A DNA stretch of 39,609 nucleotides, taken from NCBI GenBank assembly GCA_016199935.1, contig JACQFS010000142.1, positions 1 to 39,609 on the forward strand, read 5' to 3'. Made by a program: the position numbers and the translations under genes. Positions within the stretch are counted from its first letter, which is position 1. Each line of letters begins with the position of its first letter. The stretch comes from Verrucomicrobiota bacterium. GTDB lineage: Bacteria > Verrucomicrobiota > Verrucomicrobiia > Limisphaerales > JACQFS01. Shown piece by piece: positions 3,201-34,997 of this stretch. The notes below the pieces were generated by a model. It did not search any database. It was given only the letters and a program-made list of their open reading frames with translations, and was not told where the DNA came from.

Positions 3201-3400
3201 GCCCTCCGGCCGCTGCCCTCTGCGGGCGCACCCGGACACTGCCCCGGACCGCGAGCCGTCCCGGCTCGCAGCGGCCACCTTGGCGGAACGATCCACAAAC
3301 TTTTCAAGGCCGGTTACATTCGCAACCGCTGCGAGCCGGGACGGCTCGCGGTCCGCCGGGGCAGCCCGGATACGCCCGCCCTCCGGCCTCTGCCCTCTGC
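3201..3400. repeat. Paired-arm palindromic element flanked by 23-bp direct repeats
   Basis: Two perfect 29-bp inverted arms (3246-3274 and 3326-3354) enclose 51 bp. Each arm holds its own hairpin: an 8-bp stem GCGAGCCG/CGGCTCGC closed on a 3-base loop (TCC or GGA). Outside them lies a direct repeat of 23 bp with one mismatch (3201-3223 and 3378-3400, GCCCTCCGGCC-N-CTGCC...). It fills most of the 398-bp gap between the esterase and the sigma factor gene. There is no coding potential and no transposase. It looks like a MITE- or BIME-type element. Confidence 0.8.
3218..3245 (+). repeat. Dispersed repeat copy 1 (second copy at 28034-28064)
   Basis: The stretch CTCTGCG..GCGCA-Y-CCGG-R-CACTGCCCC here recurs at 28034-28064 with two substitutions and a 3-base difference in a G run. 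Both copies are intergenic and sit beside strong hairpins, so this is probably a recurrent edge of these elements. Confidence 0.6.
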
Positions 3401-9610: not shown

Positions 9611-9712
9611 GCAACTGGAATGTTGGTCACCCAAACAAATAACGAACACAACTTTTACATCTGCCGAACAACCGGCAACCGCGACGAAGGCAAAATCATT
9701 GGGAACAAAATC

Positions 9713-12700
9713 ATGAAAACAAAGAACACAACGGCCAGGACCACCACATGCAAAATGACGCGGTCCCCGATTGACCGACCGAACATCGCGAAGCGTTTGG
9801 ACTGCGGCGCTTCAGCGCCGCTTTCAAATGCGTGGGTGCGAGCGAGGCCGTTGTGCGTCACGGATGAAAAAGCGGTGATGAATCACCGCAGTCCAAACGC
9901 TTCGCGATGTTTGGACGCGCCCACGGATTCGTCGCCTGCAAGCCGGGCGGAGGCGCAATGTCAGGCAGGGGGCGCTTTCCTCAGCGCGCCGTGGCCGGTC
10001 AAGCCAACGTCCGACATTCCTCACGGCGCGCTGGGGACAGCGTGTCCTGCCATCCGCACTTTTGCCGGGCTGTTGCTCATTGCGCTCGCGCTTTGCGGCC
10101 CGCTTATTGCCGCGACTGCGCCACCAAAGGGAGACAAAGCACCGCCGCTCACGCCTCCTCCTCCTCCCGCACCCGCGCCCGTCATCACACTCTCCGATTT
10201 CAAACTCACCGGTGAGCTCGCGGGCGAACGCGCGGCGTTCACGCTCACGGCGAAGGCGAAGGTGGAGGACACCAAGGGCGGCTCGCTCGAACTGCTCTCG
10301 GGCACGGTCGCGCTCACAGGTTTCACGCCGAATCCCAAGTGGCGATTGCGCGTGGAGCAGAACCGTTTCATCGCCGTGTTCGACCGCGATGGCACGTTTC
10401 CGATCGAGATCAAATTTAACACCGCCGTGCGCCAGCGCGACGGGTGGAAGTCGGTGGATTTCCGTGTCGCTCCGAGCGTGCTGCAACCGCTCGTGCTGCG
10501 CGGGCTGGCGGAGGACACGCAGTTCCGCTTCGCCGGTGCGGCGCGCGCGGACCGCAAGGGCGACGACTTTGTGACGTGGCTCGCGTCAGACGGCGTGGTG
10601 AACCTCTCGTGGCAGGAGACGCGGCCGGAGGCGGAGGGAAAACTTTTTTACGCCGCCGAGATGCTCTCGCAAATCAGCGTGAGTCCGGGGCTGTTGCGTC
10701 AGACGGCGCTGCTGGATTTCAAAGTGATGCAGGGCGAGCTGAGTCGCGTCGCGATTTTGCTGCGCGGCAAGGACGAGGTGACGCGCGTGCAGGGCGACCA
10801 GGTGCTCGCGTGGAACGTCGAGCCGGTCGCCGGCTCCTCCACCGACCGCCGGCTCGTAGTGAAGCTCAACCAGCCGCAGAAGGACTCCTTCGCGCTCCAG
10901 GTGCAGACGCAGGCGCCGCTCGGCGCGTTCCCGCAGACGGCCGGGGCGACGCAGTTGCAGCCGGAGGGCGCGACGCGCTTCGCCGGCTTCTTCCGCGTGG
11001 TGAACGATGGCGCGGTGCGGCTCGAAGTCGTGCAGGCAGCCGGGCTGTCGCAAATTTCGCCGGAGCAATTTCCCGAGACGAGCGCGAGCAAGGCGGCGCT
11101 GCGCTCGACGGGCACGCAGCGTTTCGCGTATCGCTTTTCCGGCGGCGACATCGCTCTGAAAATCCAGGCCGAGCAGACGCTGCCGGAACTGACGGTGTCG
11201 CAGGTGCTCGCCTACCGGCTGGGCGAGGCGGAACTTTCGGCCGAGGCGGAGATCGAGGTGGAAATCCGCGAGGCGCCGTTGCGTGAGCTGACGCTGCACG
11301 TGCCCAAGGGCTACGCCGTCGCGCAGCTCAGCGCGAACGGGCTCGCCGATTATTTTTTGCGCGAGCCGGCGGACCAGACGAATGCCGAGCTGCGTTTGGT
11401 TTTCAGCCAGCCCGTTTCCGGCCGGCAGGTCATCGGCCTGCGGCTGGAGCGCAACTCCGCGCTCGTCTCGACCAACTGGACGCTCCCGCGCATCGAGGTG
11501 CCCAAGGCGAAATCCGTCCGCGGCAACGTGGGCGTGTCCGCCGACGCGGGCTTCCGTCTCACGCCCGCGCGCACGTCGGGCCTCACCGAAATGGCCACGG
11601 CATTTTTCCCGCGCAAAATTTCCGGTCTGCAGACGGCGTTCCGCATCAGCGAGCCGGCGTGGCAGGCGACGTTGCGCGTCGAGCGGCTGCCGCAAACGGT
11701 GCAGGCCGACGCGTTCCACCTATTCTCCATCGGCGAGGGCATCGCCTACGGCAGCAGCGTGATGAACTACGTCGTGTCGGGCGCGCCGGTGTCGGCGTTT
11801 CGCGTCGAGCTGTCGGACGAATATTTCAACGTCGAGTTCACCGGCGCGGACGTGCGCAACTGGCAGAAGACGACGAACGGCTACGTGGTGCAGTTGCACG
11901 CGCCGGTGTCGGGCGCCTACACGCTGCTCGCGAGCTACGAGCGGCCGTTCAAGGCGCAGGGCGAGACGCTGGCGTTCACCGGCGCGCGCCCGCTCGACGC
12001 GCAAAGCGAGCAGGGCCACACGGTCATCATCAGCGCGAACCAGTTCGAGGTGAAGCCGGCGGAAATTTCGCCCGGCCTGCTGCCGCTCGAAAGCGGCGAG
12101 GTGCCGCCGGAATACCGGCTGTTCTTCGACGCGCCGATTCTCGCGGCGTATCGCTACGCGGCGCGGCCGTTCAATCTGCGCCTCGCGCTCAGCCCGCTCG
12201 CGCAGGGCGATTCGCTCAACCAGGTCGTCGAGCGCGCGTCGCTGCTCACGCGCATCTCGAAGGAGGGCCAGGTCGTCACCGACGCGACTTACTTTCTGAA
12301 AAATCGCGGCAACCCGAATTTCCGCCTCACGCTGCCCGAGGGCACGCAGCTCTGGTCCGCGACCGTGAACGGCGCGCCGGTCGTGCCGGTGATTGACGCG
12401 AAGGACAACCTCATCCGCCTGCCGCAGAGCGCCGACCCCAACGCGGTGCTCAAGGTGGACCTCAAGCTCGCGTCGCGCTCGGCGGTCGCGGAGCGCGTGA
12501 CGCTCGCCGCGCCCAAGGTGAACGCGCCCGAGATGCTCGCCGAGTGGCGGCTCGAACCCGACGCGGGCCGGCGGCTCGTCTTCGAGCGCGGCTCGCTCAC
12601 GCCCGTCGGCGGCGAGACGGACGTGACGGGCTTCGCGCAACTCGCGCGCGTGTTCAACGGCGGCGGCGACGCGCTGCGCCCGGCGGTGCTGCTCTTCGCG

Positions 12701-15700
12701 GCGCTGTTGCTCGTGGGCATCGCCATCGCGGTGTGGCGGTGGACGTGTCAGGACGGCGTTTTCAAATTTACCGCGAGGCATCTGTGCGGTGTCGTGGTGG
12801 GGCTCGCGGCGTTCGGGCTTGCGGTGGTCGTGCTGCTCACGTTGGCCAATGCGGCGACGGGGCAGCAGGCCTTCTCGTCGCGCGAACTGAGTTTCCTCGC
12901 GCCGGTGAAACAGGCCGGCAGCGTGTTGAGCATCGAAGTGGCGAACCTCGAGGACAAGCCGACGACCGGCGGCGCGCTGCGTCCGGCGTGGCCCGCGCTG
13001 CTGGCGCTCTTGGCGTGGGGCTTCGCGTGGAGCCGCCGTGACGCGACGCTCAAGGCGCTCGCGCGCGCGGTCGGCTGGACGCTCGTCGCGTGGGCCGCGC
13101 TGCGTTCGCAAAACGGCGCGCCGGCATTTGTCATCGTCGTGGTCGCGTTCCTCGGAGTGCACGTTTTGATTCCGGCGATGCGGCAGTTGTTCCGTCTGCC
13201 GCGCCGGGCCGCGACTGATGCGGGTGAGAGCGGCATCGCGACGGCGGTCACGTCATTGCTCATCGGCGCGCTGCTGTGGCTGAACACCGGCTGCGCAATG
13301 GACGCCACGGGCCGCACCAAAACTTCCGGCCCCTCGCTCGCGCTGAAGGAGCCGCCGGTCGCGGAGTCCATCACGCAGAGCGTGCGCGTGGAGGAACAGT
13401 TCGCGCTCGGGACGTCGAAAATCCACTGGCCCGCGCTCAAGGGCCAGGTGCTGCCGCTGCTCGCCGAGCCGGCGGTGCTCACGCGCGTGAGCTACCCGTC
13501 GAACTCGCTCAAGCTCGTGACCGCGCAGGTCGGCGGCCGGCGCACGCAGCAACTGGTCGCGAAGTTCGACGGGACTTACGACGTGGAGGTGCAATACCAG
13601 ATGCAGGTGACGAAGAAGAACGGCGAGAGCGGCTTCGCGTTGCCGACGCAGTTCGGACTCGTCAACGAACTCCAGCTCACGCTCGCCGGCCTTGACGTGG
13701 ACGTGCAGTCGGCGCAGGCGGTGTCCATCGAGCGCGAGCTCGCGGACACGAACACGGTCGCGAAGCTGGTGCTCGCGCCGGTGGGAGAAACGTGGGTCGG
13801 CTGGAGGCCGCGCAGCCGCGATGTGAAAAAGGAGAAGGCGGTGTTCTACGCCGATGTGGCGCAGCTTTACGCGCCGTCGGCGGGCGTGATCGAGGGCGCG
13901 CATCACGTCGCGATTCGCCCGGCGCAGGGGGAGCTGGGCGAGTTGGTGTTCACGATTCCAGCGGGAGCGACCGTCACTGACGTGGGTAGCAGCCGAGGTA
14001 ACGAGGCTCTAACTTCTCAGTCCGGAAAAAGTCAGAGCCTCCTCACGTCGGCTGCTAACGGATCGGTGGTGTCGCTGTGGCGCTTCGATCCGGATGCGCG
14101 AAAGCTGCGCGTCACGTTGAACCCGCCGCAGTCGAAGCCGTTCGCGCTCGTCATCCGTTCGCAGGTCGCGACGGGACCGCTGCCGGTCGAGCAATCCGTC
14201 GGGCTCGTGTCGGTGGATGGCGCGGCGGGGCAGATTGGTCTGCTCGGCGTCGCCACTGGAAATGAAGTGCAGCTCGACAGCGTGGGCGCGGATTCTTTTT
14301 CTCCGATCAACCTCGAAGATTTTCCCGCGGCCACCGCGCAATCCCTCGCGTCGCAGATTTCCGGGCTGACCGTGCGTCGCGCATTCCGTTATTCGGATGC
14401 GAAGGCCACCGCGTCGCTCAAGGCCTCGCCCGTCGAGCCGGACGTGCGCGTCGAGGCGCAGACCACGTTGTCGCTCGGCGAGGACCGCACCGTGCTCGCC
14501 GCGAACCTCACGGTGGACATCACGCGCGCCGGAATTTTCCGCCTCAGCTTCGTGATGCCCGACGGCTTCGACGCCGAGGCGATCAGCGGCGCGGCGTTGA
14601 GCCATTGGACGGAACTCAAGAGCGACGCGGGGCGCGTCATCACGCTGCACCTGCGCGGCAAGACCGAGGGGCGGCAGGCGTTCGCGATCAACGTGACCGG
14701 CCCCGGCGTGAAGTCCGCGGCGGCGTGGCGCGTGCCGCAGTTGCTCCTGCGCGAAGCGGGCAAACAGCAGGGCACGCTCGTGATCGCGCCCGAGCAGGGG
14801 ATGCAGTTGCAGGCGGCGACGGTCGAGGGCGTGTCGCAGCTCGGCCCGCAGCAGTCGGGCATCAAGCAGAAGGGCGTGCTCGCGTTCCGGCTGTTGCAGA
14901 CGGCGTGGAACCTCGCGCTGAAAGTCGAGCAGGTGGAGCCGTGGATCCAGGTCACGAGCCTCCAGCACGCGACGGTCAACGAGGCGCTCGTGAAGGTCGC
15001 CGCGAACTTGCAATACCAGATCGAAAACACGGGGCTGAAAACCTTGCGCGTGCTCCTGCCGACGAACGCCGAGAGCGTGCGCTTCACGGGTGAACTGGTG
15101 ACGGACTTTCTGCAAGTGCAGAATGCGGTGACGAATCCCGACAAGTCGGGACAACTGTGGGAGGTGAAATTGTCGCGCCGCGTCATCGGCCAGTATCTGC
15201 TGCACGCGACATGGCAGACGGTGATGGCCGACCAGGCGAGCGACACCACGATGGCCGGCGTGCAGGCGGCGGAGGTGAATCTGCAACGCGGCTTCGTGGC
15301 CGTGCAGTCGGGCGGACGGTTGCAGTTGCGAGTGGACGCCGCGCCCGCGGCGTTGCAGCCGGCCGAGTGGCAGAGCATCCCGCGCGCGCTCCAGCAAAAC
15401 CTCCCGCAGACCGCGGCGAGCCACACGTTCCGGCTCGTCGAGCCGGCGTTCGTGCTGCCGCTGAAACTGGAGCGGCACGAGGCGGCGAAACTTTTGCCCG
15501 CGCGCATCAACCGCATCACCTTCACCTCCGCGATCTCCGACGACGGCGTGATGCTGACGCGCGCGCAGCTCGAGATGCAGCCGGGCGACAAGCGCCTGCT
15601 CGCGCTCACCCTGCCGGCGGGAGCGAAGTTCTGGTTCGCGTTCGTGAACAACGGCGGCGTGTGGCCGTGGCGCGACGGCGAGAAGATTCTGATCCCGCTC

Positions 15701-16603
15701 GAACAGCCGTCACGCGGCGCGGCGGTGCCGGTGGAGATTTTCTTCAGCGGCAAGGCCGGCGCGGCGGACGGGCGCGCGCTCGATCTCGAACTGCTCGCGC
15801 CGAAATTTGACCTGCCGCTGGAAAACCTCACGTGGCGCGTTTTCCTCGGCGAGCGGTGGCAGGTGAAAAAGTGGGCGGGCGCGTTGCAACTGGAGCAGGA
15901 GCAGTTCGTCGCGGGCGGCGCGGCGTTTGATTTGCAGGGCTACCTCAAGGGCGAGGCCGTGCAGCAGCGGCAGAAAAGCGATCAGGCCACGCAGATGCTC
16001 ACGCTCGGCAACAACGCGCTGCAACAGGGCGACCCGCAGCAGGCGCGGCGGGCGTTCCAGTCGGCGTGGGGATTGTCGAAGCACGACAGCGCCTTCAACG
16101 AGGACGCGCGCGTGCAGTTGCACAACCTCAAGCTGCAACAGGCGCTCGTGGGTTTGAACGTCCGGCAGTTAAACGTCAACGGCGGCGTCGCGACCAACGC
16201 CGTCGCGCTCACGCTCAACGGCAGGCTGCGCGAAACTCAAGGCGGCCAGGAACTCAACTACACGCAGCAGGACGCGAAGCAACTGATCGAGCAGCGCACC
16301 AGTGACGACAACGCCGCGCTGATGAAACTGGCCGAGCGGATCATCCAGCAGCAGGACGCCGCGGTGATTGTGCCCGCCGCGATCCGCGCGAACATTCCCG
16401 AGCAGGGCCGCCTGCTCACCTTCAAGCGCGCCGTGGTGGTGGACACGTGGGCTGACCTAAAGATCGCGGTGCAAACGACCGCGGCGCGGACGTCCTCACT
16501 GGGAACGCAAGCCGCGACGCTGGCGGGGATTTTCCTGATGCTCGCGCTGGTCGCGTGGGTGTCGGCGTCGTTTGGGGCGCGCCGGACGAGTGCGGCGGAG
16601 TGA
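9713..16603 (+). CDS. Very large multi-domain envelope protein with internally duplicated halves
   Basis: About 2296 residues from ATG 9713 (GGGA 8 bases upstream); the frame is open back to ATG 9620, giving 2327. Residue numbers here count from 9620. A hydrophobic signal or anchor (TFAGLLLIALALCGPLIAAT) starts only near residue 149, after a leader that includes two palindromic elements. It is followed by a Pro-rich linker and a long beta-rich region. A central cluster of membrane segments lies at about 1020-1226 and ends in LLWLNTGC, a lipobox-like sequence. A second beta-rich half follows, with a TPR-like stretch (LGNNALQQGDPQQARRAFQ) and a C-terminal membrane helix. The halves align from about 395 (VLAWNVEP...) and 1484 (VSLWRFDP...). 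A 74-bp palindromic element is read in frame at 13986-14059. Function unknown; probably envelope assembly or sensing with the preceding genes. Confidence 0.8.
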   Translation: MKTKNTTARTTTCKMTRSPIDRPNIAKRLDCGASAPLSNAWVRARPLCVTDEKAVMNHRSPNASRCLDAPTDSSPASRAEAQCQAGGAFLSAPWPVKPTSDIPHGALGTACPAIRTFAGLLLIALALCGPLIAATAPPKGDKAPPLTPPPPPAPAPVITLSDFKLTGELAGERAAFTLTAKAKVEDTKGGSLELLSGTVALTGFTPNPKWRLRVEQNRFIAVFDRDGTFPIEIKFNTAVRQRDGWKSVDFRVAPSVLQPLVLRGLAEDTQFRFAGAARADRKGDDFVTWLASDGVVNLSWQETRPEAEGKLFYAAEMLSQISVSPGLLRQTALLDFKVMQGELSRVAILLRGKDEVTRVQGDQVLAWNVEPVAGSSTDRRLVVKLNQPQKDSFALQVQTQAPLGAFPQTAGATQLQPEGATRFAGFFRVVNDGAVRLEVVQAAGLSQISPEQFPETSASKAALRSTGTQRFAYRFSGGDIALKIQAEQTLPELTVSQVLAYRLGEAELSAEAEIEVEIREAPLRELTLHVPKGYAVAQLSANGLADYFLREPADQTNAELRLVFSQPVSGRQVIGLRLERNSALVSTNWTLPRIEVPKAKSVRGNVGVSADAGFRLTPARTSGLTEMATAFFPRKISGLQTAFRISEPAWQATLRVERLPQTVQADAFHLFSIGEGIAYGSSVMNYVVSGAPVSAFRVELSDEYFNVEFTGADVRNWQKTTNGYVVQLHAPVSGAYTLLASYERPFKAQGETLAFTGARPLDAQSEQGHTVIISANQFEVKPAEISPGLLPLESGEVPPEYRLFFDAPILAAYRYAARPFNLRLALSPLAQGDSLNQVVERASLLTRISKEGQVVTDATYFLKNRGNPNFRLTLPEGTQLWSATVNGAPVVPVIDAKDNLIRLPQSADPNAVLKVDLKLASRSAVAERVTLAAPKVNAPEMLAEWRLEPDAGRRLVFERGSLTPVGGETDVTGFAQLARVFNGGGDALRPAVLLFAALLLVGIAIAVWRWTCQDGVFKFTARHLCGVVVGLAAFGLAVVVLLTLANAATGQQAFSSRELSFLAPVKQAGSVLSIEVANLEDKPTTGGALRPAWPALLALLAWGFAWSRRDATLKALARAVGWTLVAWAALRSQNGAPAFVIVVVAFLGVHVLIPAMRQLFRLPRRAATDAGESGIATAVTSLLIGALLWLNTGCAMDATGRTKTSGPSLALKEPPVAESITQSVRVEEQFALGTSKIHWPALKGQVLPLLAEPAVLTRVSYPSNSLKLVTAQVGGRRTQQLVAKFDGTYDVEVQYQMQVTKKNGESGFALPTQFGLVNELQLTLAGLDVDVQSAQAVSIERELADTNTVAKLVLAPVGETWVGWRPRSRDVKKEKAVFYADVAQLYAPSAGVIEGAHHVAIRPAQGELGELVFTIPAGATVTDVGSSRGNEALTSQSGKSQSLLTSAANGSVVSLWRFDPDARKLRVTLNPPQSKPFALVIRSQVATGPLPVEQSVGLVSVDGAAGQIGLLGVATGNEVQLDSVGADSFSPINLEDFPAATAQSLASQISGLTVRRAFRYSDAKATASLKASPVEPDVRVEAQTTLSLGEDRTVLAANLTVDITRAGIFRLSFVMPDGFDAEAISGAALSHWTELKSDAGRVITLHLRGKTEGRQAFAINVTGPGVKSAAAWRVPQLLLREAGKQQGTLVIAPEQGMQLQAATVEGVSQLGPQQSGIKQKGVLAFRLLQTAWNLALKVEQVEPWIQVTSLQHATVNEALVKVAANLQYQIENTGLKTLRVLLPTNAESVRFTGELVTDFLQVQNAVTNPDKSGQLWEVKLSRRVIGQYLLHATWQTVMADQASDTTMAGVQAAEVNLQRGFVAVQSGGRLQLRVDAAPAALQPAEWQSIPRALQQNLPQTAASHTFRLVEPAFVLPLKLERHEAAKLLPARINRITFTSAISDDGVMLTRAQLEMQPGDKRLLALTLPAGAKFWFAFVNNGGVWPWRDGEKILIPLEQPSRGAAVPVEIFFSGKAGAADGRALDLELLAPKFDLPLENLTWRVFLGERWQVKKWAGALQLEQEQFVAGGAAFDLQGYLKGEAVQQRQKSDQATQMLTLGNNALQQGDPQQARRAFQSAWGLSKHDSAFNEDARVQLHNLKLQQALVGLNVRQLNVNGGVATNAVALTLNGRLRETQGGQELNYTQQDAKQLIEQRTSDDNAALMKLAERIIQQQDAAVIVPAAIRANIPEQGRLLTFKRAVVVDTWADLKIAVQTTAARTSSLGTQAATLAGIFLMLALVAWVSASFGARRTSAAE
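9782..9911. repeat. 130-bp palindromic element inside the leader of the giant gene
   Basis: Perfect 26-bp inverted arms at 9782-9807 and 9886-9911 (AACATCGCGAAGCG..., TTTGGACTGCGG). Each arm runs into a hairpin of the form GCGG-nnn-TTCA-nnn-CCGC: 9804-9821 has CGC/GCG, and 9872-9889 read on the minus strand has TGA/TCA. The TTCA loop is kept while the three inner pairs all differ by compensatory changes. The element is read in frame by the giant gene. Confidence 0.9.
9964..10051. repeat. Second palindromic element in the leader of the giant gene
   Basis: Imperfect 30-bp inverted arms at 9964-9993 and 10022-10051 (25 of 30 match), with the conserved end CAGCGCGCCGTG and its complement. The arms resemble those at 22200-22286 (GGYAGGRCRCGSTGTCCYCA pattern), so both belong to one family. 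The element ends about 12 bases before the hydrophobic signal codons. Confidence 0.75.
13986..14059. repeat. Palindromic element read in frame inside the giant gene
   Basis: Inverted arms at 13986-14013 and 14031-14059 share TAGCAGCCGA..., GAGGCTCT with a few mismatches, around a 17-base centre. The frame stays open, adding a Ser/Gly/Asn-rich stretch (SSRGNEALTSQSGKSQSLL) between two beta-rich segments (TIPAGATVTDV and VVSLWRFDP) that would otherwise adjoin. Confidence 0.85.
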
Positions 16604-22127: not shown

Positions 22128-22199
22128 AAATTAAAAGTGGAACGCGGAGTTCGGAATGCGGCGGGATGTTTTGCGGCGGCGCGGCCTTTGTCAATCGCC

Positions 22200-22286
22200 G
22201 GTAGGGCGCGGTGTCCTCACCGCGCCGCGAAAAACACCGCACCCGTTCGGCCTGTCCGCGGCGCGCCGAGGACAGCGCGCCTTACC
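22200..22286. repeat. Palindromic element between yidC and khpB
   Basis: 30-bp arms at 22200-22229 and 22257-22286 match at 26 of 30 positions. Arm 1 folds as GCGCGGTG-TCCT-CACCGCGC; arm 2 (minus strand) folds as GCGCGCTG-TCCT-CGGCGCGC. Two of the four mismatches are a compensatory G-C to C-G swap and a third makes a G-T wobble, so the hairpin is kept. It starts 3 bases after the yidC stop and may act as a mRNA end or attenuator. Confidence 0.9.
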
Positions 22287-22289
22287 CGC

Positions 22290-24167
22290 TCACTTCTTTT
22301 TCTTCGGCGGCAGCGGCGTGACGGTCTTGATGGGCGCGCCGTTGCCCGCGGCCTTCGCCTTTTGCTCGGCGGCCTTGGTGAGGTTCGTCTGCAAAATGGT
22401 CAGCAGGTTTTGCACGGTCCAGTAGAGCGCAAGGCCGGAGGAGAAGTTGTAGAGGATCACGAGGAACAGCAGCGGCATCCAGCGCATCATGCGCGCCTGC
22501 GCCGGGTCCATGCCGGGCGAGGTCGGGGTGAGGTGCGACTGCCACAGCGCGGTGCCGATGTAAATGAGCGGCATCAGATTGAACGGCAGCCCGACGCCGG
22601 GCACGCCGAGGAACGGCACCCAACTGAGGCCGGGGATGTTGAAGAGCGTGTCGGCCTGCGAGAGGTCGCACATCCAGAGGAAGCCGGCGCCGCGCAGTTC
22701 GATGGCGCTGCGGAGCATGGTGAAGAATCCGAAGAACACCGGGAGCTGGATGAGCATCGGCAGGCAGCCGGAGGCGGGGTTGACCTTGTTCTCCTTCCAC
22801 AGCTCCATGGTCTTCTGCTGCTGCTTGGCCGCGTCGTCCTTGTATTTTTCCTTGATCGCGTTGAGCTGCGGCGAGAGCGCCTGCATTTTCTTCATCGAGC
22901 GCGTGCTCACCGCGGTCAGCGGCCAGAACACGAGCTTGATGATGACGGTGATCGCGACGATGGCCCAGCCGTAGCCGAGGCCGACCTTGTGCAGCGCGTT
23001 CATCGAGAGCAGCAGCGCCTTGGCGAAGAAGCCGAAGAAGCCGGTGAACTCCATCACCACGTCCTGCCGCTCGGGCAAAAGCGACAGCGTGTAATATTCC
23101 TTGGGTCCCGCGAAGAGATCGAAGGCCAGCTCCACCTTGCCACCCGGCTGGAGCGTCGCGCCCGGATAGGTTAACGCGGTCTGGATGCCGACGGGATGCA
23201 GCGCGAAGGGCTTGAGGCCGGGCGTGTTCGCCGGCGCGAGCGGCGGCAACTCCACGCGCCGGCCGACGACGCCGGCGGGGAGCCAGTTGCTCGCGCGCGC
23301 GTGCGCGATCATGGTGAAGAACTGGTTGTTGACCGCGGCCCACACGGGCGTGCCCGGAGCGCTGCGCCACTCGATGCGCGGGGTGCTCGGACCCGTGACG
23401 CAACTGAAGAACGACGCGTTGTCGAACCACGGCTTCTGAATGTGCTCCGGCTTCTGCCCGTTGAACCAGAACAGGCCCGTGAGCGAACCGTCGTCCTTTT
23501 CGCTCATCGGCGTGGCGGTGCCGATGATCCATTCCTGCGCGGGCACGGCCACCGCCGCGGAGCCGTGATTTTCCACTCGCGCCGTCGCCTTGAGGACGTA
23601 ATTGCTGCCGGGCTGAAACTCCTTCACGAGCGTGAGGCCGCCGATGGTCTTCTCCGCACGCACGCCGGTGGCGGTCTTGGTCAAAGTGAAGACGCCGTCG
23701 CCCTCGAGTTCCGCGCCGCCGAAGACGGCAAGCGCCGGCAGGGGCGCACCGGAGTTGAGCGTGGCGAGCGCGTTGGTGGTGAGGCTGTGGTTGCCGCGGC
23801 AGCCGACCGCCGCGGGGTAACGCTTCAACTCGACCTGCTTCAGCCCGCCCCAGTGCGAGGAGAACGTGTAGCGCGCGTCGTCGTTCTCGATCACGAGCGT
23901 CTCCTCCGCCGCGGCAATCTTCGCTGGCGCGGCAACGGCGGGCAGCGCCTGCATGGACGCGGGCGCGTTCGTGACGCGGGCCACGGGTAGGTTCGTGATT
24001 GCGCGGCTGATGCTGCCGTCAACGTTGGTCGTGACGTTGGTCACGGCCACGACGGCGTTGGTGCTGATCGGCACCTTGATGGGCGGCCAGATTTTTTCGA
24101 CCAGCTTGCCCCACGTGAGCAGCAGCAGAAAACACGCGGCGAAGATGAGGATGGTTTTGCGGTCCAT
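22290..24167 (-). CDS. yidC: Membrane protein insertase YidC/Oxa1
   Basis: 625 residues from the ATG at 24167, chosen because MDRKTILIFAACFLLLLTWG is a typical YidC first membrane helix; the frame is open further upstream but only through repeat-derived and yidD sequence. A large periplasmic beta-sandwich domain (about 80-380) is followed by the conserved C-terminal insertase core (GFFAKALLLSMNALHKVGLG, GYGWAIVAITVIIKLVFWPL, CLPMLIQLPVFFGFFTML) with five helices. It inserts membrane proteins alone or with Sec. It lies 10 bp downstream of yidD and ends in a Lys-rich tail, as usual. Confidence 0.97.
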   Translation of the reverse strand: MDRKTILIFAACFLLLLTWGKLVEKIWPPIKVPISTNAVVAVTNVTTNVDGSISRAITNLPVARVTNAPASMQALPAVAAPAKIAAAEETLVIENDDARYTFSSHWGGLKQVELKRYPAAVGCRGNHSLTTNALATLNSGAPLPALAVFGGAELEGDGVFTLTKTATGVRAEKTIGGLTLVKEFQPGSNYVLKATARVENHGSAAVAVPAQEWIIGTATPMSEKDDGSLTGLFWFNGQKPEHIQKPWFDNASFFSCVTGPSTPRIEWRSAPGTPVWAAVNNQFFTMIAHARASNWLPAGVVGRRVELPPLAPANTPGLKPFALHPVGIQTALTYPGATLQPGGKVELAFDLFAGPKEYYTLSLLPERQDVVMEFTGFFGFFAKALLLSMNALHKVGLGYGWAIVAITVIIKLVFWPLTAVSTRSMKKMQALSPQLNAIKEKYKDDAAKQQQKTMELWKENKVNPASGCLPMLIQLPVFFGFFTMLRSAIELRGAGFLWMCDLSQADTLFNIPGLSWVPFLGVPGVGLPFNLMPLIYIGTALWQSHLTPTSPGMDPAQARMMRWMPLLFLVILYNFSSGLALYWTVQNLLTILQTNLTKAAEQKAKAAGNGAPIKTVTPLPPKKKK

Positions 24168-24177
24168 GCGGGAAAAA

Positions 24178-24498
24178 TCAGGAATGACGAATGACGAATG
24201 ACGAAACGTGAGTCGCCGCGGGGGCCGGTTCGCCATTCGGCATTCGGCATTCGGCATTTTTTCCGGGCACCGGGTCGTGCCCGCCGCCGCCCCACGGCTG
24301 GCAGCGGCAAAGGCGATGCGCCGAGAGCAAAGTTCCCTTCGCCGCGCCGTGCAGCCGCACGGCCTCGAGCGCATACGCGGAGCAACTCGGCGTGAAACGG
24401 CAATGCGCCGACGGCCCGAACACGAGCGGCAGCAGCGGCGAGAGCGTCCACCGATACAGCCGCACGAGCAGCACGAGAAAATGTTGGGCCGGATTCAC
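24178..24498 (-). CDS. yidD: Membrane protein insertion efficiency factor YidD, with a repeat-derived C-terminus
   Basis: 106 residues. The YidD core is complete ([50 protein letters not shown]) up to about residue 78. The remaining 28 residues do not look like YidD: residues 81-86 and 97-106 ([10 protein letters not shown]) are encoded by the two arms of the palindromic repeat at 24183-24258. Its start overlaps the rnpA stop by 4 bp. It is a small amphipathic protein that supports YidC-dependent insertion. Confidence 0.95.
24183..24258. repeat. Heptamer-array palindromic element forming the 3' end of yidD
   Basis: One arm (24183-24205) is a tandem AATGACG array; the other (24236-24258) is a tandem of its imperfect complement built on CGGCATT. 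The arms pair at 20 of 23 positions, and all three mismatches fall at the same place in each heptamer (A versus C). Confidence 0.9.
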
Positions 24499-32745: not shown

Positions 32746-34005
32746 ATGGCCACCATCGCCGTCCTCGGCACGCTCGACACCAAGGGCGAGGAGCACGCTT
32801 TTGTCGCGGACCTCATCCGCCGGCGCGGGCACCAGACGCTCGTCATTGATGTCGGCGCGCTGGAAGCGCCCAAGCTCAAGCCCGACATTACGCGCGAGGA
32901 AGTGGCGCGCTCTGGCGGCGTGGATCTCGCCGGACTCGTCGCGCGCAAGGACCGCGGCGAAACCGTGGCCGCGATGGCAAAGGCAGCGACGGCGATGCTG
33001 TCGAAACTGGTCGCGGAGAAAAATGTGGACGGCGTGATTTCACTCGGCGGCGGCGGCGGCACGGCCATCGCCACGGCGGCGATGCGCGCATTACCGGTGG
33101 GTTTTCCCAAGCTGATGGTCTCCACGCTCGCCAGCGGCAACACCGCGCAATACGTCGGCGTGAAGGACATCGTGATGATGCCCAGCATCGTGGACGTGGC
33201 CGGATTGAACCGCATCTCGCGCCAGATACTCACGCAGGCGGCGGGGGCGGTCTGCGGGATGGTGGAGTTCGGTGTCCAAGCTTCAGCCTGCTCCGGCACC
33301 GACACGCTGAAGCGTGGACACCAAGCGGCGGACAAACCCGTCATCGTCGCCTCGATGTTTGGCAACACCACGGACTGCGTGCAGGCGGCGCGGAAAATTC
33401 TGGAAGCGGCGGGCTACGAGGTGCTCGTGTTTCACGCGACGGGCATCGGCGGGCGCACGATGGAATCACTCATCGAGTCCGGCCTAGTCTCCGGCGTGCT
33501 CGACATCACCACGACGGAGTGGGCGGATGAAGTCGCGGGCGGCTTTCTCACGGCCGGCCCGACGCGCCTCGAAGCGGCGGCGAAGACCGGCACGCCGGCC
33601 ATCGTGACGCCGGGCTGCATTGACATGGTGAACTTCCACGGGCCCGAGTCCGTGCCGGCGAAATTCAAGGGCCGGAAATTTTATCCGCACAACCCGCAGG
33701 TCACGCTCATGCGCACCACGCCGGAGGAGAACGCGGCGATGGGAAAAATCTTCGCGGAGAAACTCAACGCCTCGCGCGGGCCGGTCACGGTGCTGCTGCC
33801 GCTCAAGGGTTTCAGCGTCATCGCCGCACCCGGCGGGCCGTTCCACGACGCGCCGGCGGACGCGGCGTTCGTCACCGCATTGAAGAAGGACCTGCGCGCG
33901 GGCATCGAAGTCATCGAAATGGATTGCCTCGTCAACGACCCGGCGTTCGCGCAGGCGTGCGCGGCGGCGTTGTTGAAGAACATCGGGAAAGCCAAACAAA
34001 CATGA
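32746..34005 (+). CDS. Tm-1-like ATP-binding protein (UPF0261) with an in-frame repeat insertion
   Basis: 419 residues. It matches the Tm-1-like/UPF0261 family from the start (TIAVLGTLDTKGEEHAFVAD, GVISLGGGGGTAIATAAMRA, GFPKLMVSTLASGNTAQYVG) to the end (GFSVIAAPGGPFHDAPADAA). Function in bacteria is unknown; plant Tm-1 binds viral helicase. Near residue 176, between GAVCGMVEF and KPVIVASMFGNTTDC, there is an extra segment (GVQASACSGTDTLKRGHQ) encoded by a palindromic repeat at 33271-33322. The following gene overlaps its stop (ATGA). Confidence 0.9.
   Translation: MATIAVLGTLDTKGEEHAFVADLIRRRGHQTLVIDVGALEAPKLKPDITREEVARSGGVDLAGLVARKDRGETVAAMAKAATAMLSKLVAEKNVDGVISLGGGGGTAIATAAMRALPVGFPKLMVSTLASGNTAQYVGVKDIVMMPSIVDVAGLNRISRQILTQAAGAVCGMVEFGVQASACSGTDTLKRGHQAADKPVIVASMFGNTTDCVQAARKILEAAGYEVLVFHATGIGGRTMESLIESGLVSGVLDITTTEWADEVAGGFLTAGPTRLEAAAKTGTPAIVTPGCIDMVNFHGPESVPAKFKGRKFYPHNPQVTLMRTTPEENAAMGKIFAEKLNASRGPVTVLLPLKGFSVIAAPGGPFHDAPADAAFVTALKKDLRAGIEVIEMDCLVNDPAFAQACAAALLKNIGKAKQT
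33271..33322. repeat. Palindromic element read in frame inside the Tm-1-like gene
   Basis: 17-bp arms at 33271-33287 and 33306-33322 match at 16 of 17 positions (GGTGTCCA-N-GCTTCAGC and complement). Each arm runs into a TTCA-loop hairpin (CACGC-TTCA-GCGTG on the minus strand at the right arm), the same loop as in the 9782 element. Confidence 0.9.
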
Positions 34006-34997
34006 AAAACCGGGAACGTCGAACATCAAACATCGAACACCGAACACCGAACCGCGCTCCGACCGGACACTTCGATGTTCGATGTTCGATGTTGGTTGTT
34101 CGATGTTTCTTTGTCGTCGCGCTGGCGTTCTCCTCCTCAGCCGCCGAGACATTCACCCCCGGCAGGACCTACTTCGGCCGCAGCAACTACATCGAGTATC
34201 TCGCCGGCGACCTGCCCTTCGTCCTCTCCGCGCCGCACGGCGGGCGCGAGAAGCCGGCCGAGCTGCCCGACCGCGAGAAGGGCACGTTCGCGTTCGACAC
34301 CAACACGCAGGAGCTGGCCCGCGCCATCCGGGACGAGTTCATCGCGCGCAGCGGACATTATCCGCACATCATCATCAGCCGCGTGCAGCGCCGGAAGCTC
34401 GACTGCAACCGCGAGATCGTCGAGGCCGCCGCCGGCCACAAACTGGCCGAGCAATCGTGGAACGAATACCACGCGTTCATCGACGCGGCGCAGAAGTCCG
34501 TGGTCGCGAAATACGGGAAGGGCTTCTTCATCGATCTCCACGGCCACGGCCACAAGGACGCGCGGCTCGAACTCGGCCTCGGCCACAACGCGGACGTTTA
34601 CGCAAAGCCGGACGCGGAACTGAACAAGCCGGACATTTACGAGCAGAGCACGCTGCGCCTGATCGCGCGCACGGGTAAGATTTCCTACACGGCGCTGCTG
34701 CGCGGCCCGACGAGCTTTGGCGCGCTGATGGAGAAGCAGGGTTTCCCCGCGACGCCCAGCCCCGGCAAGCCCGTGCCCGGCACGCCCTATTTCAATGGCG
34801 GCTACACCGCGCGCCGCCACTCCGCGGTGGAAAATTTTGCCGGGCTCCAGATCGAATCCAACTCCAAGGGCGTGCGCGACACCGAGGCGAATCGGAAAAA
34901 GTTCGCCACCGCGCTGTTCAACACCCTCAAGACCTACCTCGACGCGCACCTCGGCCTGAAGCTTTCGGACAACGGCGCGGGCCGGTCGTCGCAGTAG
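34002..34997 (+). CDS. Secreted N-formylglutamate amidohydrolase-like protein with a repeat-derived N-terminus
   Basis: 331 residues from ATG 34002 (overlaps the previous stop; GGGAAAG about 10 bases upstream); ATG 34089 is an alternative. Residues about 5-36 are encoded by the palindromic element at 34014-34108. From ATG 34089 the sequence is a signal peptide (MLVVRCFFVVALAFSSSAAE) whose first residues come from that repeat. The mature domain resembles FGase-family zinc amidohydrolases (PFVLSAPHGGREKPAELPDR, FFIDLHGHGHKDARLELGLG, AVENFAGLQIESNSKGVRD). Substrate unknown; such secreted members may act on peptides or cell-wall fragments. Confidence 0.82.
   Translation: MKNRERRTSNIEHRTPNRAPTGHFDVRCSMLVVRCFFVVALAFSSSAAETFTPGRTYFGRSNYIEYLAGDLPFVLSAPHGGREKPAELPDREKGTFAFDTNTQELARAIRDEFIARSGHYPHIIISRVQRRKLDCNREIVEAAAGHKLAEQSWNEYHAFIDAAQKSVVAKYGKGFFIDLHGHGHKDARLELGLGHNADVYAKPDAELNKPDIYEQSTLRLIARTGKISYTALLRGPTSFGALMEKQGFPATPSPGKPVPGTPYFNGGYTARRHSAVENFAGLQIESNSKGVRDTEANRKKFATALFNTLKTYLDAHLGLKLSDNGAGRSSQ
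34014..34108. repeat. Palindromic element supplying the N-terminus of the amidohydrolase-like gene
   Basis: 38-bp arms at 34014-34051 and 34071-34108 match at about 32 of 38 positions; both are arrays of TCGAACA-type units and their complement (TTCGATG). A 19-bp centre separates them. The frame is open throughout. Confidence 0.9.

Follow-up and report, generated by a model that had tools for sequence, protein, structure and literature searches.

The inverted repeat read in frame within a UPF0261 (Tm-1-like) gene belongs to a dispersed palindromic family, here called family A, that is probably mobilised by a RAYT and that had been missed when this DNA was first read. The window, i.e. the whole stretch of 39,609 nucleotides that was analysed, is contig 231 of a 5.03-Mb genome (G000) of the Limisphaerales. 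We regard it as likely that a RAYT-mobilised REPIN-like element was inserted here and has been tolerated in the disordered linker of the protein. Such a miniature element would consist of a pair of REP-type hairpins in inverted orientation with a spacer between them, and its mover would most likely have been a REP-associated tyrosine (Y1, HUH) transposase acting in trans. A RAYT of the type of P0004, or a relative of it, could have moved the element as single-stranded DNA into the sequence coding for the linker that joins the N domain to the C domain. The survivors of such events would be only the in-frame, stop-free insertions at dispensable linkers, and the inserted peptide would be close to neutral.

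The repeat and its host protein

The assignment of the host protein (P0001) to UPF0261 comes from two domains that both exceed their cut-off of 27, PF06792 at residues 3-175 (E 1.7e-66, 224 bits) and PF23189 at residues 197-411 (E 3.2e-90, 301.6 bits), and the NCBIfam family NF002674 is also matched above its cut-off. The inverted repeat is placed exactly between the two domains. In an AlphaFold2 model based on an alignment of 38 sequences (mean pLDDT 86.6), values below 50 are found only at residues 178-193, between a helix (156-176) and a strand (199-204), so that the insertion maps to a predicted disordered linker. The closest folds detected by Foldseek are the Tm-1 structures 3WRX (first, E 1.1e-40), 3WRY and 3WRW; with these and with 9MPY the protein has family and fold in common, whereas the linker sequences of the solved proteins differ from its own.

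The sequence-only reading described a near-perfect inverted repeat turned into protein without loss of frame, and both points have held, since the arms pair at 16 of 17 positions, none of 200 dinucleotide shuffles folds as well (z -4.1 as DNA and -4.7 as RNA) and the palindrome is read inside an intact frame. As RNA, the window copy folds into a stable hairpin of -33 kcal/mol. A chance palindrome is ruled out by the shuffles together with the recurrence of the sequence at 35 places in the genome. The bounds of the element, of about 60 bp (Table 1), were set by alignment with 21 other copies from the same genome; a covariance model of the family (R1), which itself includes the window copy, matches it at 33265-33328 with E 1.1e-13. 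No Rfam match up to E 1 was found within 33000-33600. Other details of that reading had to be amended: the TTCA/TGAA motifs are present, but as the loops of two half-hairpins and not as the ends of a single one, and there are indeed extra residues at this place, but relative to the most frequent linker length the net gain is 14 (22 versus 8) and not about 18, as most of the earlier linker has given way to the element.

Table 1. Positions of the features discussed in the text (window coordinates unless a locus is named)
Feature	Position	Strand	Remarks
UPF0261 (Tm-1-like) protein, P0001	32746..34005	+	419 aa, intact frame
Interdomain linker of P0001, residues 175-196	33268..33333	+	22 residues, nearly all element-derived
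REPIN-like palindromic element, family A	33267..33326		Two half-hairpins and outer stem; in-frame residues 175-193
Left arm GGTGTCCAAGCTTCAGC	33271..33287		Pairs with right arm
Right arm GCTGAAGCGTGGACACC	33306..33322		Complementary to left arm at 16/17
Family A places in coding-like frames of G000			Window copy; two on contig 212 (PSCyt2/PSD1); two on contig 128
Two in-frame family A copies, one PSCyt2/PSD1 protein	L191:2001-2066 and 2321-2387 (G000 contig 212)		
Long open frame with two family A copies	L186:2-3832 (G000 contig 128)	-	Longer spacers; both copies in FGV frame
DinG/YoaA-like helicase frame, 949 aa	L357:397-3243 (G050 contig 476)	-	RAYT-like stretch between family B pairs
DinG/YoaA-like helicase frame, 916 aa	L356:532-3279 (G048 contig 124)	-	RAYT-like stretch between family B pairs
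Long UPF0261 linkers, in residues			G024 30; G129 23; G000 22; G135 and G137 21; G048 and G050 20; G117 19; G002 13

Several other palindromes were noted in the window. A GTAG-tagged one at 13986-14058 lies in frame within an ORF (9620-16603, 2327 aa) that has no Pfam match, and a PSD1 protein of G037 apparently carries the same family in frame; near the start of the same ORF are two long inverted repeats (9776-9917 and 9964-10051), which may lie upstream of the actual start codon. At 3245-3355, 51 bases separate the arms of a perfect 30-bp inverted repeat, and a palindromic array of CGAACATCGAACACCGAA-type units (34007-34119) directly follows the UPF0261 stop codon. The palindrome at 22197-22289 was rejected as a coding case, its frame being antisense to ORF 22290-24374.

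Family A and its candidate transposase

A search of the own genome with the arm pattern, allowing up to two mismatches, rendered 56 matches versus 4 for the reversed control, and R1, built from 22 full copies (51-55 bp between the outer ends of the arms), rendered 35 distinct places at E<=0.01. The consensus is composed of nCGTTTGGTGTCCACGCTTCAGCGTG, a spacer and CACCCTGAAGGGTGGACACCAAACGC. Each half is itself palindromic (CACGC-TTCA-GCGTG and CACCC-TGAA-GGGTG), and the outer parts of the two halves pair with each other. In the resulting clover, a common stem bears two small hairpins with TTCA/TGAA loops; over the 22 copies, 95.7% of its cells are paired, and 8 pairs have changed on both sides, a number reached by none of 500 shuffles. 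A single long hairpin was considered as the conserved form and fits more poorly (87.6% of cells paired), because columns 16/52 and 23/45 are mismatched in 19-20 of the 22 copies; covariation thus favours the clover over the single long hairpin. Family A therefore has the two inverted palindromic units and spacer of a REPIN, and it is a dispersed, chiefly extragenic family, with only 5 of its 35 places in frames of coding-like codon composition on both sides. Neither of the known tags is found in it: GTAG is absent from the consensus nCGTTTGGTGTCC...GGACACCAAACGC, as is the CGTC of the CGTC REPs and RPEs, the outer ends being CGTT(T/C) in most copies.

A candidate for the mover is found in G048, where the RAYT-like protein P0004 (REP_Tyr_transpos, E 1.2e-19) is encoded between family A copies. 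It scores under the cut-offs of NF047646 (70.6 versus 80) and Pfam Y1_Tnp (21.3 versus 23). Relatives at 51-74% identity are present in G036, G137, G117 and G024, and all four are flanked on both sides by R1 matches, although one flank in G036 is weak (E 0.024). The independent flanking cases number four, since the G048 locus was chosen via its nearby family A matches. All five genes retain the NHYH motif; the tyrosine of NY[VI]H is retained in four, the fifth gene, that of G117, having a broken frame. As controls, distant relatives of P0004 had an R1 match at 1 of 24 loci, about 970 bases off, and other Y1 loci a single weak match among 34. A close RAYT relative was found in 5 of 10 genomes with R1 matches versus 0 of 12 without them (Fisher 0.0096, or about 0.02 when the founding G048 is removed).

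Thus, a RAYT gene flanked by its own family, as in REPIN systems, is seen in five genomes, but the genome that harbours the window copy has no matching RAYT. In its assembly (97.7% complete, 260 contigs) no close relative of P0004 was found, the best match being of 27% identity, and its four Y1_Tnp genes (L111-L114) were discarded as the mover, none having a family A match within 2.5-3.3 kb. The mover of family A in this genome may have been lost, may be unassembled or may be a different one.

Family A was also read in protein frames at other places. Counting those of G117 and G024, there are seven in-frame copies, a small number and not all of them independent; six share one frame (...GV[QP]...), from which the first PSD1 copy differs. 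Homologues of that PSD1 protein hold other palindromes at both sites of the own-genome copies, with 55 residues at the first site in G002 and a GTAG-family palindrome in frame in G037.

The linker across the order

The search for UPF0261 in 320 genomes of the order rendered matches in 141 (one was counted per genome, second or partial matches being left aside), and 139 are orthologues that span the linker; G118 and G142 were omitted from the count because their matches do not span it. Measured between GMVE and KP, the linker has 8-12 residues in 130 orthologues, most commonly 8, and 13-30 in the remaining nine (Table 1). On a tree of the 139 proteins built without the linker columns, Fitch parsimony needs six gains to account for the long linkers, and the closest relatives of the own genome, the sister genomes G100-G102 (support 0.99), have short ones.

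In the sequence-only reading, a segment of similar length at the same place outside this clade was to count against an insertion. Taken literally such segments exist, in eight other genomes of the 139; since the extra DNA in five of these eight (G024, G117, G048, G050 and G002) consists of a recognised palindromic repeat, the comparison supports recurrent insertion, rather than an old feature of the family, as the probable source of the long linkers. The linkers of G117 and G024 hold family A (E 2.8e-10 and 5.4e-7, respectively, with R1 built only from own-genome copies). In G048 and G050 the linker holds a palindrome pair of another, unrelated family (B), for which the respective genomes have 96 and 108 matches versus 2 and 1 for the control; family B carries the GTAG tag in G048 and has 3 matches in G014, a congener with a short linker. 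The linker of G002 holds family C (GGCGGTCACAGACCGCC), which is moderately repeated (23 matches in the genome versus 7 for the control). Palindromic DNA has therefore been found inserted in at least four lineages, from three unrelated families. In the remaining long linkers, those of G129, G135 and G137, no recognised element is present. The G137 sequence is not repeated elsewhere in its own genome, and the G135/G137 linker was rejected as a further repeat family: a search of four genomes gave no matches other than to itself and to short, weakly matching pieces. At the UPF0261 linker neither a precise empty site nor a duplication of the target is definable, and in the clear cases it looks as though the element has supplanted most of the earlier linker, in a replacement and not a clean addition.

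Family B is also found around a RAYT-like stretch inside a DinG/YoaA-like helicase, where helicase parts, RAYT-like stretch and family B pairs share one open frame in both G048 and G050, the assignment having been made from domain and family searches of the G050 protein.

Tolerance, use or targeting

That the linker grew by ordinary slippage or drift, being palindromic by accident and without any mobile element, would agree with the varying length of interdomain linkers and with the three long ones that lack a recognised element, but for the window copy this is refuted by the excess of arm-pattern matches over the control and by the 35 places at which the 60-bp sequence is found; the detection of family A by the covariance model in other genomes argues against it as well, and as a general account we give it hardly any weight. 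It could also be the case that the palindrome has been selected for a role in the mRNA or the nascent chain, the hairpin slowing the ribosome while the N domain folds. The location at a domain boundary, the repeated origin from different palindrome families and the stability of the window copy as RNA are in favour of this, but 130 of the 139 orthologues manage without a palindrome, the linkers of G024 and G002 are no stabler than the rest of their genes (83 of 145 and 78 of 157 windows, respectively, are as low), and most family A copies (30 of 35) do not lie in coding-like frames, so that we hold such a role to be improbable.

Somewhat less improbable, though still unlikely, is that the linker DNA is a preferred RAYT target, by its sequence or as a single-strand hot spot, and that the recurrence is due to targeting more than to tolerance. 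The site has received palindromes on at least four occasions, from three families, which would fit with this, as would the pairing of the REPIN tail with a complementary target, put forward in Bertels and Rainey's account of REPINs (PMC3116915). However, one common target motif is not expected for hairpins that are family-specific, two family A copies occupy two different sites in the own-genome PSD1 protein, and the other palindromes of PSD1 homologues fit with tolerance at loops generally. Beyond the tolerated insertion that we favour, a broader reading, which we put forward with considerable reserve, would be that RAYT-type transposition has been a recurrent source of linkers in the Limisphaerales, with REPIN-encoded peptides taking over linkers and loops time and again (UPF0261, PSD1 and an entire RAYT gene read through within the DinG/YoaA helicase), and that some of the hairpins or peptides at domain boundaries have been kept as useful, e.g. 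for a pause in co-translational folding.

That three unrelated hairpin families have each come to fill the same linker independently amounts to a natural experiment, which makes it testable whether in-frame insertions are tolerated or used. In-frame intragenic REPs are already known, as the Rickettsia palindromic elements (RPEs) and the Opitutus REPs; as far as our searches show, what is new is a REPIN-like family that has no tag but has a candidate RAYT, together with the repeated capture of one linker by unrelated families. Insertions in UPF0261 did not appear in the literature surveyed on in-frame palindromes, REPs, RAYTs and UPF0261/Tm-1, a survey of openly accessible papers without their supplements.

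The closest known system is that of the REPINs, as presented by Bertels and Rainey in 2011 (PMC3116915). According to the parts of that work on their structure and distribution, REPINs share with family A the inverted pair of REP-type palindromes, the variable spacer, the compensatory changes and the dispersed copies, as well as a RAYT gene that adjoins copies of its own family. The clover proposed there as the form recognised by the transposase is also found in family A, and is backed by the covariation described above. In contrast to those REPINs, family A has a Limisphaerales host and lacks the GTAG tag, and some of its copies are within proteins, whereas REPINs are treated in those parts as extragenic. 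REPs of the GTAG and CGTC types that lie inside genes have been described by Di Nocera et al. in 2013 (PMC3733652), in whose account the intragenic GTAG cases are most numerous in the verrucomicrobium Opitutus terrae and flexible linkers are suggested as safe sites for them. Those REPs, like family A, are dimeric palindromes in reading frames, where they encode 20-30 residues, but family A bears neither tag. The passages on intragenic REPs in that paper, which leaves a list to its supplement, give one same-site case, recB of two Xanthomonas, whereas in the present order a single linker was reached by three families unrelated to one another; UPF0261 is not mentioned in those passages. The classic case is that of the RPEs, reviewed by Delihas in 2007 (PMC2229807), which are likewise palindromic mobile elements in frame in conserved proteins and apparently tolerated. 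They are longer (105-146 bp versus about 60 bp) and differ in sequence and phylum, and no transposase is named for them in the review's passages on these elements, whereas family A has a candidate RAYT. With it, in-frame palindromes found outside Rickettsia are connected with a definite candidate for their transposase.
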